Of a stretch of 64,000 bases of DNA, positions 448-37,227 are shown in pieces (position 1 is the first letter of the stretch; the number at the start of each line of letters is the position of its first letter). A model generated the notes under the pieces. The model was not told the DNA's origin. It saw only the letters and a list, made by a program, of their open reading frames with translations, and did no database searches. This DNA comes from Symbiodinium natans (lineage: Eukaryota; Sar; Dinophyceae; Suessiales; Symbiodiniaceae): positions 81,118 through 145,117 of the forward strand of contig CAJNDS010000414.1 in the NCBI GenBank assembly GCA_905221605.1, written 5' to 3'. The position numbers and the translations under genes were made by a program.

Positions 448-454
448 TGTGCCC
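448..454. repeat. Left copy of candidate target-site duplication
   Basis: The heptamer TGTGCCC sits directly outside the left inverted repeat and occurs again, identically, directly outside the right one at 6616-6622. The true duplication could be 6 bp, because one C is ambiguous between target and element. Confidence 0.7.
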
Positions 455-750
455 CTCTCTCTCTTGCTAAAGGTTTTTTAATTGCACTTTTGCGCGCCCC
501 CAGCCGGTCTCACAAACGACCCCTCTTTCTGAAGCTCTGTGGGCGCTCTGGCGGCAATCTGGTCACTTGGCTTAAAATCGGCCGTGACAGGCTCTGGGCG
601 CATTCTGGGCGCGAGCGCCCCTGCAGAAATGCAGTTTTCTAGAAATCAGGGAAAACGGCTGTGGATGCATTTCTGCGGCGTTGGCCAAGCGTGCTACGGA
701 AGGCGTCGGAAATCGACTGAGCATCAAAAACAGCAAAGCATCAGAAGGGA
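455..750 (+). repeat. Left terminal inverted repeat
   Basis: It begins CTCTCTCTCTTGCT and continues through a well-conserved core (AGCCGGTCTCACAAACGA near 501-518). It matches the reverse complement of 6351-6615. The outer 230 bp align closely with small indels. The inner part, around CGACTGAGC at 714-722 and CATCA near 740, is patchier. Two extra CT units distinguish the left tip from the right. Confidence 0.85.
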
Positions 751-755
751 CCACT

Positions 756-1255
756 GGGAGCTCGAAGCAAGCAGCTGAGAGGCTCTAAACCCCTTAAACT
801 GGCCCATGGGAGCTCGAAGCAAGCAGTTGAGAGGCTCTAACCGTCTTAAACTGGCCTCTGGGAGCTCGAAGCAAGCAGTTGAGAGGCTCTAAACCCCTTA
901 AACTGGCCTCTGGGAGCTCGAAGCAAGCAGTTGAGAGGCTCTAACCCCCTTAAACTGGCCTCTGGGAGCTCGCAGCAAAAGTTGAGAGGGTCAAAAAATC
1001 TTAAACTTAGATTTTGAAGCTCGAAGCAAAAGTTGAGAGGGTCAAAAAATCTTAAACTTAGATTTTGAAGCTCGAAGCAAAAGTTGAGAGGGTCAAAAAA
1101 TCTTAAACTTAGATTTTGAAGCTCGAAGCAAAAGTTGAGAGGGTCAAAAAAACTTAAACTTAGATTTTGAAGCCCGAAGCAAAAGTTGAGAGGGTCAAAA
1201 ATCTTAAACTTAGATTTTGAAGCTCGAAGCAAAAGTTGAGAGGCTCAAAACCTTA
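756..1255. repeat. 51-52 bp minisatellite, about ten units
   Basis: Units begin near AGCTCGAAGCAA at 52-bp steps (756, 808, 860, 912, 964), then at about 51-bp steps with a different inner sequence (TCAAAAAATCTTAAACTT). The second subfamily is nearly homogeneous over five units and the first is more diverged, so the array expanded in two rounds. A minus-strand open frame of 128 codons through it is a by-product of the period being close to a multiple of three. Confidence 0.9.
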
Positions 1256-2263
1256 AACTTTAGATTATGCTGAGCCCTCACACTCAAACGGGTCCTTCGA
1301 GATGACAGTCACGAACTGCTTGTGATGCTGCTGTGCGACCTGGCGCGTCAACAAAAAAAATGGATTCAATCGAGCCTTGCTGCATTCTTGCGGGTGTACC
1401 GTGCAGAGCGTTCAGCCAGGTTCGCCCCCTGTCCGGATGATACGTTTTGATTCATGCTGCAAGCACACCCTTTTTGTGACACACAAAGCTTGCGTAGCGT
1501 TTACCGTCATTTAACACCCATCGGGAATGCGACATAGCTACGATGTGCACGAAGCATTTCGGCTGAGATCGTGCCCTGTATGTGGCACTCAAAGCCAGAG
1601 CTGTATCTGTATCTCCGTGAAAGGCACGGCTGGAAAAGCAAAGAGTGGCCTGCACATTTCAAACGCCAACTGTTTGCCTCAACTTTGTACAGGAGCCAAG
1701 GCTCAGAACTACAGCATGGGTGCATTTGCCCCCCCACCTCCCAACACTTTGTGATGTGAAGGCGTTTACAGTGGCTGTGCTGGGCAAAAACGTGCAATCA
1801 ATTTGCCCCCCCACCTCCCAACACTTTGTGATGTGAAGGCGTTTACGGTGGCTGTGCTAGGCAGAGGAATGCAGAAGAGAACCCCAAGCATGCAGCCTGT
1901 CCATCGCTGCGCATTCTTTGTGCAACGATGCCCCCCTACCATCCAACAGAATTGGAGTTTACGTGGCTGTGCTAGGCATCTGCGGCTGCTGACGCAAGCT
2001 AGTTCACAACAAATGGCGCTATGTGGCATTCTTCGCAACTGGCAAGTACCGGCATAGCCCCCCAGAAAAAGAACTAGGTCGTCGGACGCAGCCAAGATCT
2101 GTAACCTCAAGGCCTGGGCACATGCCGTGATAGCGGCATCTACCGAACAAACCTGTAGCCTCAGAAGTCTGTGCTATCTTTGTGCTAAACTCGTATTCGA
2201 ATGTCAGAGTTACAACATCACGCCGATGGTTTCTGAGGCACAGGCACAAACTCAGAAGCGGAG
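1256..2263. other. Element interior without a recognised gene
   Basis: Overlapping short frames occur on both strands but none shows a domain. Nearer the right end lies the tandem duplication described at 1725-1860. A noncoding or regulatory role within the element is possible but not supported by a motif. Confidence 0.4.
1725..1860. repeat. 77-bp tandem duplication
   Basis: The segment beginning TTTGCCCCCCCACCTCCC at about 1725 recurs at about 1802 and continues in both copies through GATGTGAAGGCGTTTAC. A weaker third relative lies near 1928-1977 (GTGGCTGTGCTAGGCA). Confidence 0.8.
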
Positions 2264-2848
2264 TCACTCGGAAAACGGATTGTACTGCTTCGCCAACGCC
2301 GCGGAAGCCTGTGCCAAATCATTCTCTTTCACTCTCACGCGCAAAGCACCCGAGCCACCCGTCTTGGACTTCATGATGTAGACGCGCCCTTTCTGACCCT
2401 GAGAAAGTGCACCACGACTCTCTTCCTTCAAACCAGCCGTGGCACACATCTTCATAACCTGGTCGGGAGTCGTGCCACCACCCAAGTACTTCGCAGCGGC
2501 CATTCTGAACTCCCAAAGACCGGATGCCACACTCCGATGAACGTCATGATCGCACTCCTCTTCCACAAAGCGCTGCAAGGTGCGGCCATCATGCTTGAGT
2601 AACTGCATGGCGCTGTCCCGCTCCACCATGCAGGGAGGGCGAGGGAGCAATCGCGTGCCTGGACTGCAAGCAGTTTGCACCGAACCGGCCAAGCCTTTGA
2701 CGAGCCACAGCAGCTGCTGGTTGAAAAAGCCCCGGCAGACCCGCGGCTTCAAAGCGTCGTCCGCAAGACCTTGAAAGCCTTCTGGAAGAGCACTGTGCGT
2801 TGTAGACATCTCGAAGATGTCCAGGCGCCTCTGCAAGCCTTCATCCAA
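2264..2848 (-). CDS. Unknown 194-aa protein of the TIR element
   Basis: I do not recognise this gene. It is an uninterrupted 194-codon frame starting from ATG at 2848 and stopping just after NPFSE. It is acidic at the start (MDEGLQRRLD), Cys/Arg-rich in the middle, and basic with Gly and Ser near the C-terminus (GQKGRVYIMKSKTGG). It has no signal peptide or membrane segment. It diverges from the fibre-like gene at 2893 with only 44 bp between the starts, which points to a shared promoter and a genuine gene. A virion or DNA-binding accessory role would suit the context, but nothing in the sequence proves it. The frame on the opposite strand is also long, so some doubt about strand remains. Confidence 0.55.
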   Translation of the reverse strand: MDEGLQRRLDIFEMSTTHSALPEGFQGLADDALKPRVCRGFFNQQLLWLVKGLAGSVQTACSPGTRLLPRPPCMVERDSAMQLLKHDGRTLQRFVEEECDHDVHRSVASGLWEFRMAAAKYLGGGTTPDQVMKMCATAGLKEESRGALSQGQKGRVYIMKSKTGGSGALRVRVKENDLAQASAALAKQYNPFSE

Positions 2849-2892
2849 GAAGTGATTGCTGGCCCTTCGGCGCGAACGGCCGCTCGCTCGAG
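2849..2892. promoter_or_regulatory. Divergent intergenic gap, possible shared promoter
   Basis: Forty-four bases separate the head-to-head starts of the minus-strand 194-aa frame and the plus-strand fibre-like gene. No TATA-like or TTTT-type dinoflagellate promoter motif is evident, so the assignment rests on geometry alone. Confidence 0.3.
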
Positions 2893-4213
2893 ATGGAAGT
2901 CGACTGCTACAGCAAGGCCGAGAGCGATGCGCGGTACATTCAAATCGGGGGACCCCCCAGCGACCCGCTCCTGGTCAACGACGTCCGCGCCAACGGTGCC
3001 GATTATTTGACGCTGCGCGGCGGCGCCCTGGGCATCGAGTTCGAGGCCAGCAACGGACTCGCCATGGCAGACCTGTCCACGAGCCTGTTCAGCATCAAAG
3101 ATGGCATCAACGTGCTCACCAAGGGTCGAATTTTTGCAGACTCGAGCCTGGGCATCGCCACCGCCGGCTCCTTCCAGGGAGGCACCGTGGAGCCTCTGTT
3201 GCCCACGGACCAGTTCCTGAACCTCAAGGCGGGCACCGTTTCTGTGCGCGTCACGGATGCCAGCGACAACAGCCTGTGCACCTTCGCCCCTGCTGAAGTC
3301 CACACTGTGGCAACCAGGCTCCGCGTGGACGACCAGCTGTACATCGACGACGCCATCGGCACTGCTACGGGCCTCGTGACCAACGCCATCTCAGTGCGGG
3401 CTCAAGACACGCAATTGTCCATCACCGGCGGGTCCAACGGAACCGTGGTGAACGGCGACTTGGATATACAGGGAACCATGACCGGAGCCAGCATTGAGCT
3501 CAACACAGAGCTTCGGGCTCCGACGGTGCGGGCCAGACCCTCGGACACCTTTCTGACGATTCGCGGCGGCACCACGGGCATGTACCTGGACGGCACCGTT
3601 TTCACCGCGTCCACTATTCAAGCAGATCCCGGTTTGGTGTCAGCGCCCGCCTGGCTCACCTTTGTTGGCGGCACGACGGGAATAGAGCAGGTCTGCAGCC
3701 TTGCTCAGGTGCGGCAAAACGTAGTTGGGGACGTGGAATTCAAGGTCCTCAACGAAGATGCGACCACTGGGGAAGCTGAGGGCCCTGGAAAGCGGAAGCG
3801 AGGTGCAGCTTCAAGCCACGAGCCAGACCATCAGCCTGCAAAATCAAACTGGAGCCTTCCAGGCGCCCGTTGTCGTGCAAACAAACGGGCTGTTGGTGGC
3901 CAATTATGGCCTGCAGAACAATTCAGACACCAACATCAAAGCAAACCAGCAGCCCACACCGCTGGCGGATCTAAAAACTGTTTTCGACGCCGTGGAAGTG
4001 AAAAGCTACACTCGCACCGACACACCGCAGCCCGAGGACCGCATTGGCTTCATAGCCCAAGAGATTCTTACTGCTGGTGTGTTGGGGCCGAAGCTTGCCA
4101 GCATGCAAGAAAATGGGCTGTACGGACTGGACTACTCTCGACTCACATGTGTTCTATGGGGAGTCTGTAAACAACTCGAGCAGCGCGTTGCAGCCTTGGA
4201 GGCAGATGATTAG
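2893..4213 (+). pseudogene. Tail-fibre-like protein with S74 chaperone, one frameshift
   Basis: The reading starts at 2893 with a motif typical of phage and large-virus fibres (YSKAESDARYIQ, residues 6-17). It continues as repetitive beta-rich sequence with recurring DTFLTIRGGTTG-like segments, which suggests a beta-helix shaft. Near 3770 a run of four G where three would keep the phase shifts the frame. The coding signal then continues in the frame open to 4213. That last part looks like a peptidase S74 intramolecular chaperone. It has SDTNIK near 3923, which would supply the Ser-Lys self-cleavage pair, then RIGFIAQEI, LDYSRLTCVLW and a terminal coiled coil (LEQRVAALEA). In phages and algal viruses this domain trimerises fibres and is then cut off. 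The frame break could be a sequencing slip or true decay. There is no intron. Confidence 0.75.
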
Positions 4214-4295
4214 GCAGACGTGAACACGCACGCATTCACGACACGACGGAGGCTGTTTCGCAGCATGGGTGGAAGCACCGGAGGCTGCATGATAA

Positions 4296-5414
4296 ATGGA
4301 GCGACATGAGGCGGCAATGGAACTGCTACGCAGACTTGCGGCAGACTTCGGCGTGCGGGACGCCCGCAAGCTGCACCAGCTAGCACGGCGGGAGTTCCCG
4401 GAGAACCGGGACTTGACGCTGGAGAGAGCTAGGGGCGCCACCCTGGAGGACGTGGCCCGGCAGGTGCTGGCCCCGAAGCCCCGGAGCCTGGGGAAGAGCG
4501 CGGCCGAGGGGCCCAACAACCGCCTGCAGGCGGACCTGATCGACTTCTCCCAGAACACCCGCTCCAGGAACAAGTACGGGTTGGTGGTAACGGACGTCTT
4601 CACGAGAGAGGCGGCCACGAAAGCGCTGCCCAGCAAGAACGCGGAGGCAGTGGCGGAGGCGGCCCGGGAAATCATCCCCGAGCTGGTGCAAGGCGAGGGG
4701 AACTACGTGGTGACCACAGACGAAGGCCGGGAGTTCCAGACACTGGAGGCGGCGCTGCCCGAAGGCGTGGTGCACCGCACCAAGAGGCCCGCGGACAGGA
4801 ACGCCACCGCGGTGGTGGACCGGCTCATCCAGACATTGAAGAAGGATTTGGCGGGGGACGTGGCCAGGCACGGCGGCAAGTGGGACGACCACATAGAGGA
4901 TGCCACGCTGGCCTACAACCGCAGACCCCACGAAACCGTGCACGCGGCGCCCGACCATGTGGAGACCCAGCCAGCCACGCAGTTCCGCGTTCTTCAGGAC
5001 AACGCCGAGAAGTTCCAGCACAATAAGAAGCTCACCGAGAGCCGGCAACACAAGCTCCGGACCTTGGGGGCCTTCCGAATGCCCACCAACGCCGCGAGGA
5101 GCTTCCAGCCCCAATACGGGCCGGTGAAACAGCTGGAAAGTTACGACTCCATGACCGTGCGGGCCACCGATGGCACCACGGGCCTGCTGAAGCAGGTGCA
5201 ACCCGTGCCCAAAGCCAGCGGAGAACCCATCCAGAGGTTGACGCAGCCTGGGGTCCCCCAACCCGTGAGGCAGCTGCAAGACTTCAACCAGGCACCCGAA
5301 GCCCTCGCCCCTGCAGCGCCCAAGGCCGCCTCCAGAAGGCCGCCGCTGGCAGTGCGGCAGCTAGAGGATTTCAACCGCGGGCCGGTCGGGCCCCGCGTCC
5401 GAGAGCTAAACTGA
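4296..5414 (+). CDS. Retrovirus-type integrase (rve fold), 372 aa
   Basis: This intact gene starts 82 bp after the fibre-like gene on the same strand. An N-terminal helical region (residues 1-65) lacks the HHCC zinc finger of retroviral integrases. The catalytic core follows: LQADLIDF supplies the first Asp (D80) and VVTTDEGREF the second (D142). The third acidic position, in NATAVVDRLIQTLKK, is Asp (D175) rather than the usual Glu. I recall the VVDR-IQTLKK form from abundant dinoflagellate integrase-like proteins, but cannot verify that here. The core is followed by AYNRRPHETVH, typical of integrases, and a basic Pro/Gln-rich tail from about residue 280 with a repeated RQL(Q/E)DFN motif. It would insert the element into new sites through the TIRs. 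Whether DDD chemistry is active is unknown. Confidence 0.85.
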   Translation: MERHEAAMELLRRLAADFGVRDARKLHQLARREFPENRDLTLERARGATLEDVARQVLAPKPRSLGKSAAEGPNNRLQADLIDFSQNTRSRNKYGLVVTDVFTREAATKALPSKNAEAVAEAAREIIPELVQGEGNYVVTTDEGREFQTLEAALPEGVVHRTKRPADRNATAVVDRLIQTLKKDLAGDVARHGGKWDDHIEDATLAYNRRPHETVHAAPDHVETQPATQFRVLQDNAEKFQHNKKLTESRQHKLRTLGAFRMPTNAARSFQPQYGPVKQLESYDSMTVRATDGTTGLLKQVQPVPKASGEPIQRLTQPGVPQPVRQLQDFNQAPEALAPAAPKAASRRPPLAVRQLEDFNRGPVGPRVRELN

Positions 5415-5435
5415 AGAGCCTTAACCGTACACGCT

Positions 5436-6111
5436 TTGCACCGTTTTCTAAGGCAGCTCAGAGACTGCAATTCTGGTCTCGCCACATTCCCTTTGATCAT
5501 CTACACAAAAATGACATCAGAGCAACTGAGCTTTGCATGCAAGACAGTGACCCTGCGGCCTTCTGAGCACAATCTGGCGCAGCTTCTGGAGCTATGGTCG
5601 ACTGAATGGAAGCATCGCGGCCGCACAACAGCCATAGGGCCTGGAGCTTATGAAAAATACTGTACCTTGGGATTGTTCGGACATGGGGGCATCGTCGGCG
5701 TTTCCAATGCATCCTCAGCACAGACAGTGTGCCTTGCGATCAACTCTTTCATGAAGAAACGTTTCCCCGGAGAATCGTGGACGTCCATCGCGCTGCTTCG
5801 CAACCCAAACATGGGTCTACACCGCGATGTGAGAAATCATCCTGACCAGATGAACCACGCAATCACTCTTGGTGCATTTCTACGTGCGGATTGAAGATGC
5901 TGCAGGCAACTCCACGGCTCAGTTGGTCATGAAAAATGAAAAATTTAAACAACTTCGAGGAACATGGTTCGATCTGCACGACCAACCCGTGAGCTTTGAT
6001 GCGCGGCGGCGCTTTCACATGGTTGAACCTCATAAAGGAACCAGTGGGCGCTTGCTGCCTACACTCCCAAAGCCTTTTCACGAGCAAGCCAAGAACACAT
6101 CACAGCTTTGA
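5436..6111 (+). pseudogene. 2OG-Fe(II)-oxygenase-like ORF, frameshifted
   Basis: The first frame (stop at 5894, likely start ATG at 5511) reads through GHGGIVGVS and WTSIALLRNPNMGLHRDV. The second frame, entered near 5875, reads RIEDAAGN, PVSFDARRRFHMVEP and ends at 6111. The phase is lost again around 6045. The HxD pair at 5820-5828 and a later His after FDARRRF resemble the iron ligands of 2OG-Fe(II) oxygenases. I know similar HGG...LHRDVHN...FD..R.H proteins from dinoflagellate retroelement polyproteins. It lies 97 bp after the integrase and before the right TIR. At least two frame changes make it a relic in this copy. The function in such elements is unknown to me; nucleic-acid base modification is one possibility. 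Confidence 0.65.
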
Positions 6112-6141
6112 CAAGTCTTGGCTTTCCGATTCCACATAATT

Positions 6142-6147
6142 AATAAA
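6142..6147 (+). terminator. Possible AATAAA poly(A) signal
   Basis: An AATAAA hexamer lies 30 bp after the last stop of the oxygenase-like ORF and before the right TIR. Dinoflagellate genes often lack this hexamer, so the match may be chance. Confidence 0.2.
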
Positions 6148-6350
6148 ATCTGAGTCAACCCATCCAAGTGTGCACTGCAAAGGTTCCACACTCCAAATGC
6201 AAGAACAAATCTAAAAAAACAAATCACTGCTTTCAATGTCTCGCGATGCTCGTTTTAAGCCTCCTCAGCGCGCCCTCTGATGCTTGTCTGATCGGCCCGC
6301 GGCTCTGGTACGCATCATGCTCGTCTTTTTCTTCTCATCAACTGCCAGAG

Positions 6351-6615
6351 TCTTATGATGCTCTACTGTTTAAAGCTCAGTCGTGGCAGTTTGGCCAACG
6401 CCGCAGAAATGCATCCACAGCCGTTTGCCTAATTTCTAGAAAACTGCATTTCTACAGGGGCTCGCGCCTAGAATGCGCCCAGAGTCTGTCACGCCCATTT
6501 TTTGCCAAGTGACTAGATTACCGCCAGGGCGTCCACAGAGCTTCAGAAAGAGGGGTCGTTTGTGAGACCGGCTGGAGGCGCGCTAAAGTGCATTAAAAAA
6601 CCTTCAGCAAGAGAG
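6351..6615 (-). repeat. Right terminal inverted repeat
   Basis: This is the reverse-complement counterpart of 455-750. On the minus strand it starts CTCTCTTGCTGAAGG and shares the long core around 6554-6571 (TCGTTTGTGAGACCGG on plus). Several substitutions and short indels separate the two TIRs, so the insertion is not very recent or the ends are under weak constraint. Confidence 0.85.
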
Positions 6616-6622
6616 TGTGCCC
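6616..6622. repeat. Right copy of candidate target-site duplication
   Basis: TGTGCCC is identical and in the same orientation as 448-454, and it abuts the right inverted repeat. Confidence 0.7.
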
Positions 6623-34756: not shown

Positions 34757-34989
34757 CATGCATCGGTAGGGTTCAGGGTTCAGGGTTCAGGGTTTAGCCC
34801 TCAGACCCGACGTTACGCCGCAGCAGAGCACACGTCTTGGAACGTGCGCAGCGACACTTGGTGGCTTTTGGGCTTCAAAAGAGCGCGCCCTCCACGCGGT
34901 TGCGCTCCCCCGCCAATGTAGAGGCGCCATGGCCAAGCTGCGTTCGAGCCACTTTCGTAAACTTTAACACTCTAGCCACTTTCGTCGTG

Positions 34990-36245
34990 GCCGTACGTTC
35001 TTGAAGCGCACCCGTGCGTGCAAATGGCCAGAGCAGCCATGCCCGCACGATGATAACGTCCGCGTGACCAGTGCGTGCGAATGGCCAGAGCAGCCATGCC
35101 CGCACGATGATAACGTCCGTGCGACCAGTGCGTGCGAATGGCCAGAGCCCGCACGATGATAACGCCCGTGTGACCAGTGCATGCGAATGGCCAGAGCATC
35201 CATGCCCGCACGATGATAACGTCCGTGCGACCAGTGCGTGCGAATGGCCAGAGCACCCATGCCCGCACGATGATAACGTCCGTGTGACCAGTGCGTGCGA
35301 ATGGCCATGAGCATCCATGCTCGCACGATGATAACGTCCGTGTGACCAGTGCGTGCGAATGGCCATGAGCATCCATGCCCGCACGATGATAACGTCTGTG
35401 CGACCAGTGCGTGCGAATGGCCAGAGCCCGCACGATGATAAGGCCCGTGTGACCAGTGCAGCGAATGGCCAGAGCATCCATGCCCGCACGATGAGAACCT
35501 CCGTGCGACCAGTGCGTGCGAATGGCCAGAGCACCCATAACGTCCGTGTTACCAGTGCGTGCGAATGGCCATGAGCAGCCCTGCCCGCACGATGATAACG
35601 TCTGTGTGACCAGTGCGTGCGAATGGCCAGAGCAGGCATGCCAGTGCGATGACAACGTCCGCGTGACCAGTGCGTGCGAATGGCCATGAGCATCCATGCT
35701 CGCACGATGATAACGTCCGTGTGACCAGTGCGTGCGAATGGCCATGAGCATCCATGCCCGCACGATGATAACGTCTGTGCGACCAGTGCGTGCGAATGGC
35801 CAGAGCCCGCACGATGATAACGCCCGTGTGACCAGTGCATGCGAATGGCCAGAGCATCCATGCCCGCACGATGAGAACGTCCGTGCGACCAGTGCGTGCG
35901 AATGGCCAGAGCACCCATGCCCGCACGATGATAACGTCCGTGTTACCAGTGCGTGCGAATGGCCATGAGCAGCCCTGCCCGCAGGATGATAACGTCCGTG
36001 TGGCCAGTGCGTGCGAATGGCCAGAGCATCCATGCCCGAACGATGATAATGTTCGTGTGACCAGTGCGTGCGAATGGCCAGAGCATCCATGACCGTGCGA
36101 TGATAGCGTCCGTGTGACCAGTGCATGCGAATGGCCAGAGCATCCATGCCTGCACGATGATAACGTCCGTGTGACCAGTGCGTGCGAATGGCCAGAGCAG
36201 GCATGCCAGTGCGATGACAACGTCCGCGTGGTGCGTGCGAATGGC
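34990..36245. repeat. 57-bp minisatellite, over twenty units
   Basis: The unit contains GACCAGTGCGTGCGAATGG, CCAGAGCATCCATGCCCG and CACGATGATAACGTCC. Most units are 57 bp and several are shortened by about 11 bp. Since 57 is divisible by 3, the minus strand stays open for over 400 codons (HALVTRTLSSCGHGCS) and the plus strand for about 80. The protein repeats are a consequence of the DNA repeat. It sits in a long intron of the giant gene. Confidence 0.95.
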
Positions 36246-36316
36246 CACGGCATCCATATCCTGTGCCTGCAGCCCCGCGGAAGGGGCTGCAGCGTACTCT
36301 TTGTCAGGCTCATTCA

Positions 36317-36425
36317 TAGCACGTCGGGCCGGACGACTGTGTGGCCATGCTTGAGGAGTACATTGCGAAGATCCGTGACCACGAGTACCGCAGCACGTGC
36401 GGCCGTCTCCGTGCAGTCTGCTGAG
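36317..36425 (+). CDS. Candidate coding relic: DDCVAMLEEYIAKIRDHEY
   Basis: Just after the minisatellite a frame reads GPDDCVAMLEEYIAKIRDHE then YRSTCGRLRAVC and stops. It is non-repetitive and protein-like but does not match the Cys modules. It may be a fragment of another gene. Confidence 0.35.
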
Positions 36426-36444
36426 TAGGTTTTGCGCGCGCATT

Positions 36445-36530
36445 TCTCTCGCCCAAAGCAGTGTACTCTCAAGGACACGCCCAAAGCAGCGCACCCTCAA
36501 GGACATGCCCAAAGCAGTGTTCCCTTCCAG
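36445..36530. repeat. 28-bp tandem repeat, three units
   Basis: GCCCAAAGCAGTGTACTCTC and CAAGGACACGCCCAAAGCAG recur three times with small changes. Confidence 0.8.
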
Positions 36531-37227
36531 CAAAGCCCCCAGACCCCTCGCCTTGACCCTCCAGCCCTCAATAAGGGTTTTCCCTTGGATTGCTTGCACT
36601 ACGCTCCACGCCCGCCACCCCGCCTGACGCGTTCTACACTAACATGCACTATTAATAAAAACAGGATGTTCACATAATCCTTTTTGCTGTTGCCCTGACC
36701 GACGAGAAATACGCTATTTGCGAGGTTTTGGCCATTCCCGCAGGCCCCGCCTGAATAAATGCGCGGCAAGACGCGGGGTCGGAGCGTTTAGGGTTTAGGG
36801 TTTAGGAGCTAGGGTTTAGGGTTTAGGGTTAAGGGTTTAGGGTGTAGGGCTTTAGGGTTTAAGGGTTTAGGGTTAAGGGTTCAGGGTTTAGGGTATGGGT
36901 TTAAGGTTTAGGGTTTAGGGTTTGCAGCTATCTCAGGGACCAAGCCCAGAGGGACTGTACCATACCAGTTGGACTGTGAAGCCTGCTTGGGTTAACGTTG
37001 AGGGAAAAGCCCAGGCCTCCAAACCCGATCCTAAAACCCGAAATTCTCCTCTTAGGCTAATCTCTGAACCCATCCCTGCTGGTACGGGTCCAGAGTTTGA
37101 GGTCTAGGGTTGAGGGTTTAGGGTTCAATCATCCCAAAAACTGCCCTAAACCCTAAACCCCAAATCCTAAACCCTAAACCCTAAACCCTCAACCCCAAAC
37201 CCTGAACCCTAAACGGCCCTTCATCAG

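Follow-up and report, generated by a model that had tools for sequence, protein, structure and literature searches.

A 6.2 kb integrase-bearing element in Symbiodinium natans is very probably a Polinton-like virus copy that lacks its middle

Introduction

What kind of mobile element measures only 6.2 kb, ends in long inverted repeats and codes for both an integrase and a virion-type fibre protein? The question is raised by a locus of the dinoflagellate Symbiodinium natans (assembly GCA_905221605.1), which occupies positions 448 to 6,622 of a stretch of 64,000 nucleotides on contig CAJNDS010000414.1 (C414:81118-145117), hereafter the window. An earlier note, made from the letters of the window, described a complete mobile unit with terminal inverted repeats (TIRs), an rve integrase, a fibre gene and oxygenase-like cargo, and proposed either a new class of dinoflagellate element or a reduced Polinton-like virus (PLV). 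We compared the unit with the rest of the same 759 Mb assembly. The comparison indicates with high confidence that the 6.2 kb unit is an endogenous PLV copy without its middle, which has kept both ends and the integrase and has a sibling of ~25 kb on contig C1962. No title on this particular element came up among the open-access papers searched.

Results

Ends of the unit and its longer sibling

The outline of the unit is as the earlier note had drawn it. Its two arms (459-698 and 6382-6615) pair at 90.4% (blastn, E 5e-86), which is far above chance, and 217 of 235 aligned columns are identical between the left and right TIRs. Allowing up to three mismatches, we count two occurrences of the tip CTCTTGCTRAAGGTTTTTTAAT in the window, against an expectation of zero. 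Directly outside both tips stands the same heptamer, TGTGCCC, as had been claimed. This heptamer was counted nine times on both strands of the 64 kb, where ~13.5 occurrences are expected, and its chance of occurring at a fixed position and strand is ~1e-4. The integrase open reading frame (ORF) is open throughout, in agreement with the note's intact integrase, and matches the Pfam family rve at 3.6e-6; its 27.6 bits fall short of the gathering score of 32.6. TIRs of hundreds of base pairs and an rve integrase accompanied by a duplication of ~6 bp (here 7 bp) are traits of PLVs, and the unit has both.

Table 1. Features of the 6.2 kb unit, with positions in the window
Feature	Position	Strand	Remarks
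Left target-site duplication copy, TGTGCCC	448..454	.	sequence, pattern count
Left TIR, first bases CTCTCTCTCTTGCTAAAGG	455..698	+	equals the left TIR of the C1962 PLV except for an 11-nt tandem unit
Tandem repeats of 51-52 nt adjoining the left TIR	751..1269	+	C1962 longer by 102 nt (two units)
Primase-like gene remnant	2022..2862	-	tblastn; covers residues 290-569 of the stop-to-stop frame in C1962 at 100% identity
Deletion junction	2862..2863	.	19.27 kb (C1962:158552-177824) missing; no shared bases at the join
Fibre gene, C-terminal part with S74 domain	2863..4213	+	N-terminal part missing; 41-nt deletion at 3776
Integrase ORF, rve-type, 372 aa, intact	4296..5414	+	2 nt and 1 aa differ from the C1962 copy
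"Oxygenase-like" right-end gene	5511..6111	+	two frames in the window (5511-5894, 5869-6111) and in C1962
Right TIR	6382..6615	-	
Right target-site duplication copy, TGTGCCC	6616..6622	.	sequence, pattern count

A search of the assembly with the left TIR yielded nine matches, including both ends of an element of ~25.3 kb (C1962:156029-181349). Gaps apart, window positions 455-2862 are identical to the left end of this element at all 2408 aligned bases, and positions 2863-6326 are identical to its right end at 3397 of 3401 aligned bases. The DNA flanking the two elements on the left differs. The two blocks meet at a junction that lies inside two genes, a primase-like gene and the fibre gene, and the fibre gene has lost there an N-terminal ORF and ~322 residues of the next ORF. 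Using 400 bases across the junction as a query (40 of 55 candidates scored), we obtained 42 matches, and only the window was matched over the full length. The two halves of the query are found at 100% identity in C1962, 19.3 kb apart, and the other 39 matches cover the fibre half only (two C1962 fibre repeats and 37 others), so these matches hold no second copy of the junction. Since the junction was seen once, no spread of the 6.2 kb form is seen in this genome, and an element that propagates at 6.2 kb is disfavoured.

This colinearity in two blocks, together with a single large internal deletion, leaves the proposed new class of element unsupported. A new class of small transposon carrying a fibre gene would account for complete ends, a duplication and an integrase ORF within 6.2 kb, but its supposed boundaries enclose sequence that is near-identical to the ends of a 25 kb PLV, the junction cuts through primase and fibre, and one copy was found among the candidates scored. 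We therefore regard this explanation as highly improbable.

Gene content of the sibling

The gene set of C1962 is that of a PLV. Above the Pfam cut-off, its ORFs match an AAA_30 helicase with HNH, a DNA_methylase (C5 methylase) and Pox_A32 (1.7e-9). It also codes for an integrase, for a primase-like frame (phrog_1156 DNA primase, E 8.4e-9) and for tail-fibre PHROG matches, the fibre frame reaching 1.7e-9. Its capsid ORF of 413 aa is identical to the database protein P0140, which was modelled at pLDDT 82.5. Among solved structures, the model matches first the PBCV-1 capsid protein 5tiq (E 2.2e-16) and next the double-jelly-roll capsid proteins of an iridovirus, PR772 and PRD1; it also matches viral capsid proteins in BFVD. 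No Pfam match to DNA polymerase B or protease families was found in the 10 C1962 ORFs scanned, smaller ORFs being outside the scan.

The 19.3 kb absent from the window codes for the double-jelly-roll capsid protein, the A32-like ATPase, the HNH-helicase, the methylase, half of the primase and the N-terminus of the fibre. Consistently, tblastn gave no match in the window to the capsid protein or to the A32-type packaging ATPase, two PLV traits that are present in C1962. Because the capsid gene is absent, we file the unit as a deletion derivative of a PLV rather than among PLVs proper. The reduced PLV of the earlier note is thereby borne out in the form of an internally deleted copy. Its complete mobile unit stands as regards the TIRs, the heptamer and the integrase ORF, but what these features delimit is a 25 kb element that has lost its interior.

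Differences between the two copies

The window and C1962 differ by four substitutions in 5809 aligned bases. Their gaps measure 11, 102, 41, 39 and 22 nt, with several of 1-2 nt. To these come the 19 kb described above and ~140 bp close to the right end. The joins of the 41-, 39- and 22-nt gaps share 0-1 nt. This excess of indels possibly reflects deletion-prone repair or assembly error. As a yardstick we used the copies of a tandem duplication on contig C2145, which show 0-12 mismatches and gaps totalling at most 60 bases per aligned stretch of 2.3-4.5 kb. They present a milder version of the same excess. The duplication itself (C2145:147319-189559) has a period of ~28.6 kb and contains PLV remnants in both orientations. 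Rows of L009-L011 with >98% identity are left out of the tblastn results.

Between the window and C1962 the left TIRs agree at all 246 columns, whereas within the window 18 of 235 columns (8%) separate the left TIR from the right. The left/right difference therefore predates the two copies. We dropped dating by TIR divergence for this reason, as the difference is older than both copies. Copying of the element accordingly did not render its two ends alike (window 455-698 and 6382-6615 compared with C1962).

Related elements in the assembly

A second element with both ends was found at C2016:323644-345447. Its genes are colinear, it has the same tips on the left and on the right, and outside them (A)GGGTGC is repeated (6-7 bp). 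Duplications could be read in two elements only, the window unit and this one, in which both tips are present. The TIRs and a flanking repeat, whose absence at other copies would have counted against the earlier note, are thus missing only in part, since this one other element has both. The first integrase codons of C2016 run into the right TIR and tip. With both tips and the duplication kept and the integrase and right-end gene deleted, C2016 is another internally deleted form within the family. On contig C2452 we identified the ATPase, capsid protein, fibre and right-end gene, with the methylase on the opposite strand; no integrase match was found within the 27.5 kb fetched.

Searching the assembly for the capsid protein gave 134 matches (101 of 460 candidates scored), of which 26 span the full protein and contain no stop, although equal scores in some cases may point to duplicates. 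Besides C1962, C2016 and C2452, gene order was checked at six of the 26 full-length loci, over 7 kb each and leaving out matches <90 nt. The order capsid, fibre, integrase was found at four of these six (C669, C1753, C347 and C756), with the right-end gene following the integrase at two (C669 and C1753). Locus C401 has the fibre and right-end gene without the integrase, and C2307 has neither fibre or right-end gene nor integrase in the 7 kb examined. The earlier note had seen a fibre gene in an integrase element as odd; the recurrence of fibre and then integrase at these loci removes the oddity, as does a published account in which S74 domains are ubiquitous among the PLVs of most groups of eukaryotes (PMC12220804).

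We also observed a second, distant capsid family at ~30 loci of the assembly, with ~30-38% identity and frames of ~475-556 aa. No free viral relative was confirmed in viral_contigs by the integrase, capsid-alignment and integrase-alignment searches, which use a few peptide patterns to scan a collection that may omit records close to the genome of the window.

Several observations weigh against the identification of the unit as a PLV copy. C1962 lacks the right tip and ~140 bp near it, its duplication is unreadable, and its fibre and right-end gene are each split over two frames, so that no flawless full-length copy was seen. The integrase is missing from C2016, where the right-end gene is also gone, and no integrase follows the fibre at two of the six further loci. 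Finally, few substitutions combined with many gaps are odd for plain decay and may be a sign of assembly error in either copy.

Genes inside the unit

The minus-strand primase remnant, which does not appear in the earlier note, has lost the first 289 of 569 residues at the deletion and contains a frameshift at ~2273. In the fibre gene, the 41-nt deletion breaks the frame ahead of the S74 part, whose match to PF13884 (E 7e-4, 20.2 against 22 bits) is below the cut-off. An S74 fibre is a common though not universal trait of PLVs, and the unit has it as a partial gene. The virion-type fibre gene reported for this locus is therefore present in its S74 part but is not whole, as its N-terminus is absent and its frame broken. 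Of 5055 candidates in a protein search with the fibre, 18 matched, a count that includes the window's own protein.

The integrase gave 427 protein matches among 7997 candidates scored, again counting the window's own, and of the 120 matches listed three bear an organism name, in each case Symbiodinium. We aligned 18 of the 427. At the position that we assigned by eye to the third catalytic residue, every one of these 18 has D (AVVDR, D175). At this residue, DDE integrases are expected to have E. The window integrase contains no cysteine and hence no HHCC zinc finger. Its best hits among PDB sequences (E 0.33 and 0.72) are not credible, and its fold model was poor (pLDDT 48) and was not used.

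Single database proteins carry S74 upstream of an integrase: P0020 and P0075 by Pfam, and P0056 by eye. In the relative P0020, the match to PF13884 (1.1e-8) is above the cut-off. The right-end gene is found downstream of the integrase in P0077, P0050 and P0093 (by eye, partly in shifted frames). The gene arrangement of the window recurs in such proteins. Together, fibre, integrase and right-end gene make up the right-hand module in this PLV family. The label of oxygenase-like cargo did not hold for the last of the three, which is split over two frames and matches no Pfam family; its best PDB hit, at E 0.21, is not credible. An H-x-D pattern was noticed by eye, and we did not adopt the name. 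It is a function-unassigned gene near the right end of the PLV family.

Surroundings of the unit

Many interspersed CCCTAAA/TTTAGGG telomere-like tracts are present on both strands at ~13500-64000 of the window. Tandem repeats with spacings of ~57-58 and 115 nt occupy positions 34878-36638, where long open frames run on the minus strand. In the protein database, the contig with the window's proteins is given as 431,491 bp, against 145,117 bp for C414, perhaps reflecting a scaffold versus a contig.

Comparison with known elements

S74 fibres, rve integrases and ~6 bp duplications have already been described for PLVs (PMC12220804). The same source reports an HNH-helicase fusion in 12 Symbiodinium PLVs and typical duplications of 6 bp by rve integrases, with one case of 7 bp that includes one mismatch. 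Endogenous PLVs of protists and dinoflagellates (PMC10120064, PMC12220804) resemble the window unit in having TIRs of hundreds of base pairs, an rve integrase, ~6 bp duplications and an S74 fibre, and they resemble the C1962 sibling in the HNH-helicase fusion, the A32-type ATPase and the double-jelly-roll capsid protein. In contrast to them, the window unit has no capsid protein, ATPase, helicase or methylase and only half a primase, and it measures 6.2 kb instead of 14-40 kb. The PLVs of another dinoflagellate, Oxyrrhis marina, also possess TIRs (232-858 bp), but these elements are described in PMC12721341 with a tyrosine recombinase and without duplications, and an rve integrase was undetected there.

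Polinton/Maverick elements share the rve integrase, TIRs and ~6-bp duplications. In the strict sense, however, they are defined by a protein-primed PolB, which was not found in the 10 C1962 ORFs; helicase and primase-like ORFs are present instead. Ginger1 and Ginger2 (PMC2836005) are similar in size range and in having an integrase-like protein between TIRs. Their duplications are of 4 bp (5 bp in TDD-4/5) and Ginger1 ends in TGTNR, whereas the window unit has a 7-bp duplication and CTCTCT ends and derives from a 25 kb virus. A Ginger-like transposon was ruled out by duplication length, ends and gene content.

Discussion

Our results identify the unit as a PLV copy with a large gap, and three origins of this gap can be considered. 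They divide the probability of the identification among themselves and do not compete with it. At this site, an rve integrase would have carried out the insertion at TGTGCCC, with duplication of the target. The resulting copy would be unable to make virions or to replicate on its own genes. As it keeps an integrase and both ends, its movement is conceivable in principle, provided that replication or excision comes from another source.

One account is that a full-length PLV was inserted and that its middle was lost later, in place, by double-strand break repair. The join without microhomology, as in end joining, is consistent with this, and so are the 0-1 nt at the three smaller gaps and the similar losses in C1962, one of which includes a tip. 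Against it, no full-length allele of the site was seen (other strains were not searched), and four substitutions in 5809 bases leave little time for decay. We consider this origin a serious candidate that falls somewhat short of an even chance. Alternatively, the 19 kb may have been deleted during PLV replication, after which a short linear genome integrated and the duplication formed around an already short element. Intact tips and an intact duplication suit such an integration but do not prove it. It is also in keeping with the integrase ORF, which is intact with one amino acid change, and with C2016, which keeps its tips and 6-7 bp repeat despite a loss from the first integrase codons into the right TIR. 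However, the junction, found once with 40 of 55 candidates scored, gives no sign that the short form has spread, and deletions that remove a tip occur too, as in C1962 and as expected of in-place decay. A deletion in replication is a possibility that we hold tentatively, at less than an even chance.

The gap could also be an artefact, if the true site holds a longer PLV whose middle was skipped by the assembler. A near-identical copy does exist elsewhere in the assembly, and false breaks through misassembly of repetitive PLVs are the subject of a published warning (PMC10120064). Yet a simple collapse at a repeat does not explain the join, whose two sides share no bases. The element also lies at least 57 kb from either contig end, and the window contains no Ns. 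We judge an artefact unlikely.

A more specific proposal sees in the 6.2 kb unit a defective PLV genome, reduced to the ends and the integrase, that arose in viral replication, became integrated naturally as a short molecule and is mobilisable in trans by full-length relatives in the genome. We regard this as rather doubtful; if true, it would be a PLV counterpart of defective interfering genomes or of non-autonomous transposons.

With the unit identified as an internally deleted PLV copy, an apparent new class of transposon becomes a deletion derivative, and a PLV family with the TIR tips CTCTTGCTRAAGG and the order capsid, fibre, integrase is described. The case shows how a partial PLV in a genome of this kind can pass for a small transposon. 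Given that 26 of the 134 capsid matches are whole and free of stops, counting elements by their integrases only could mislabel viruses as transposons.

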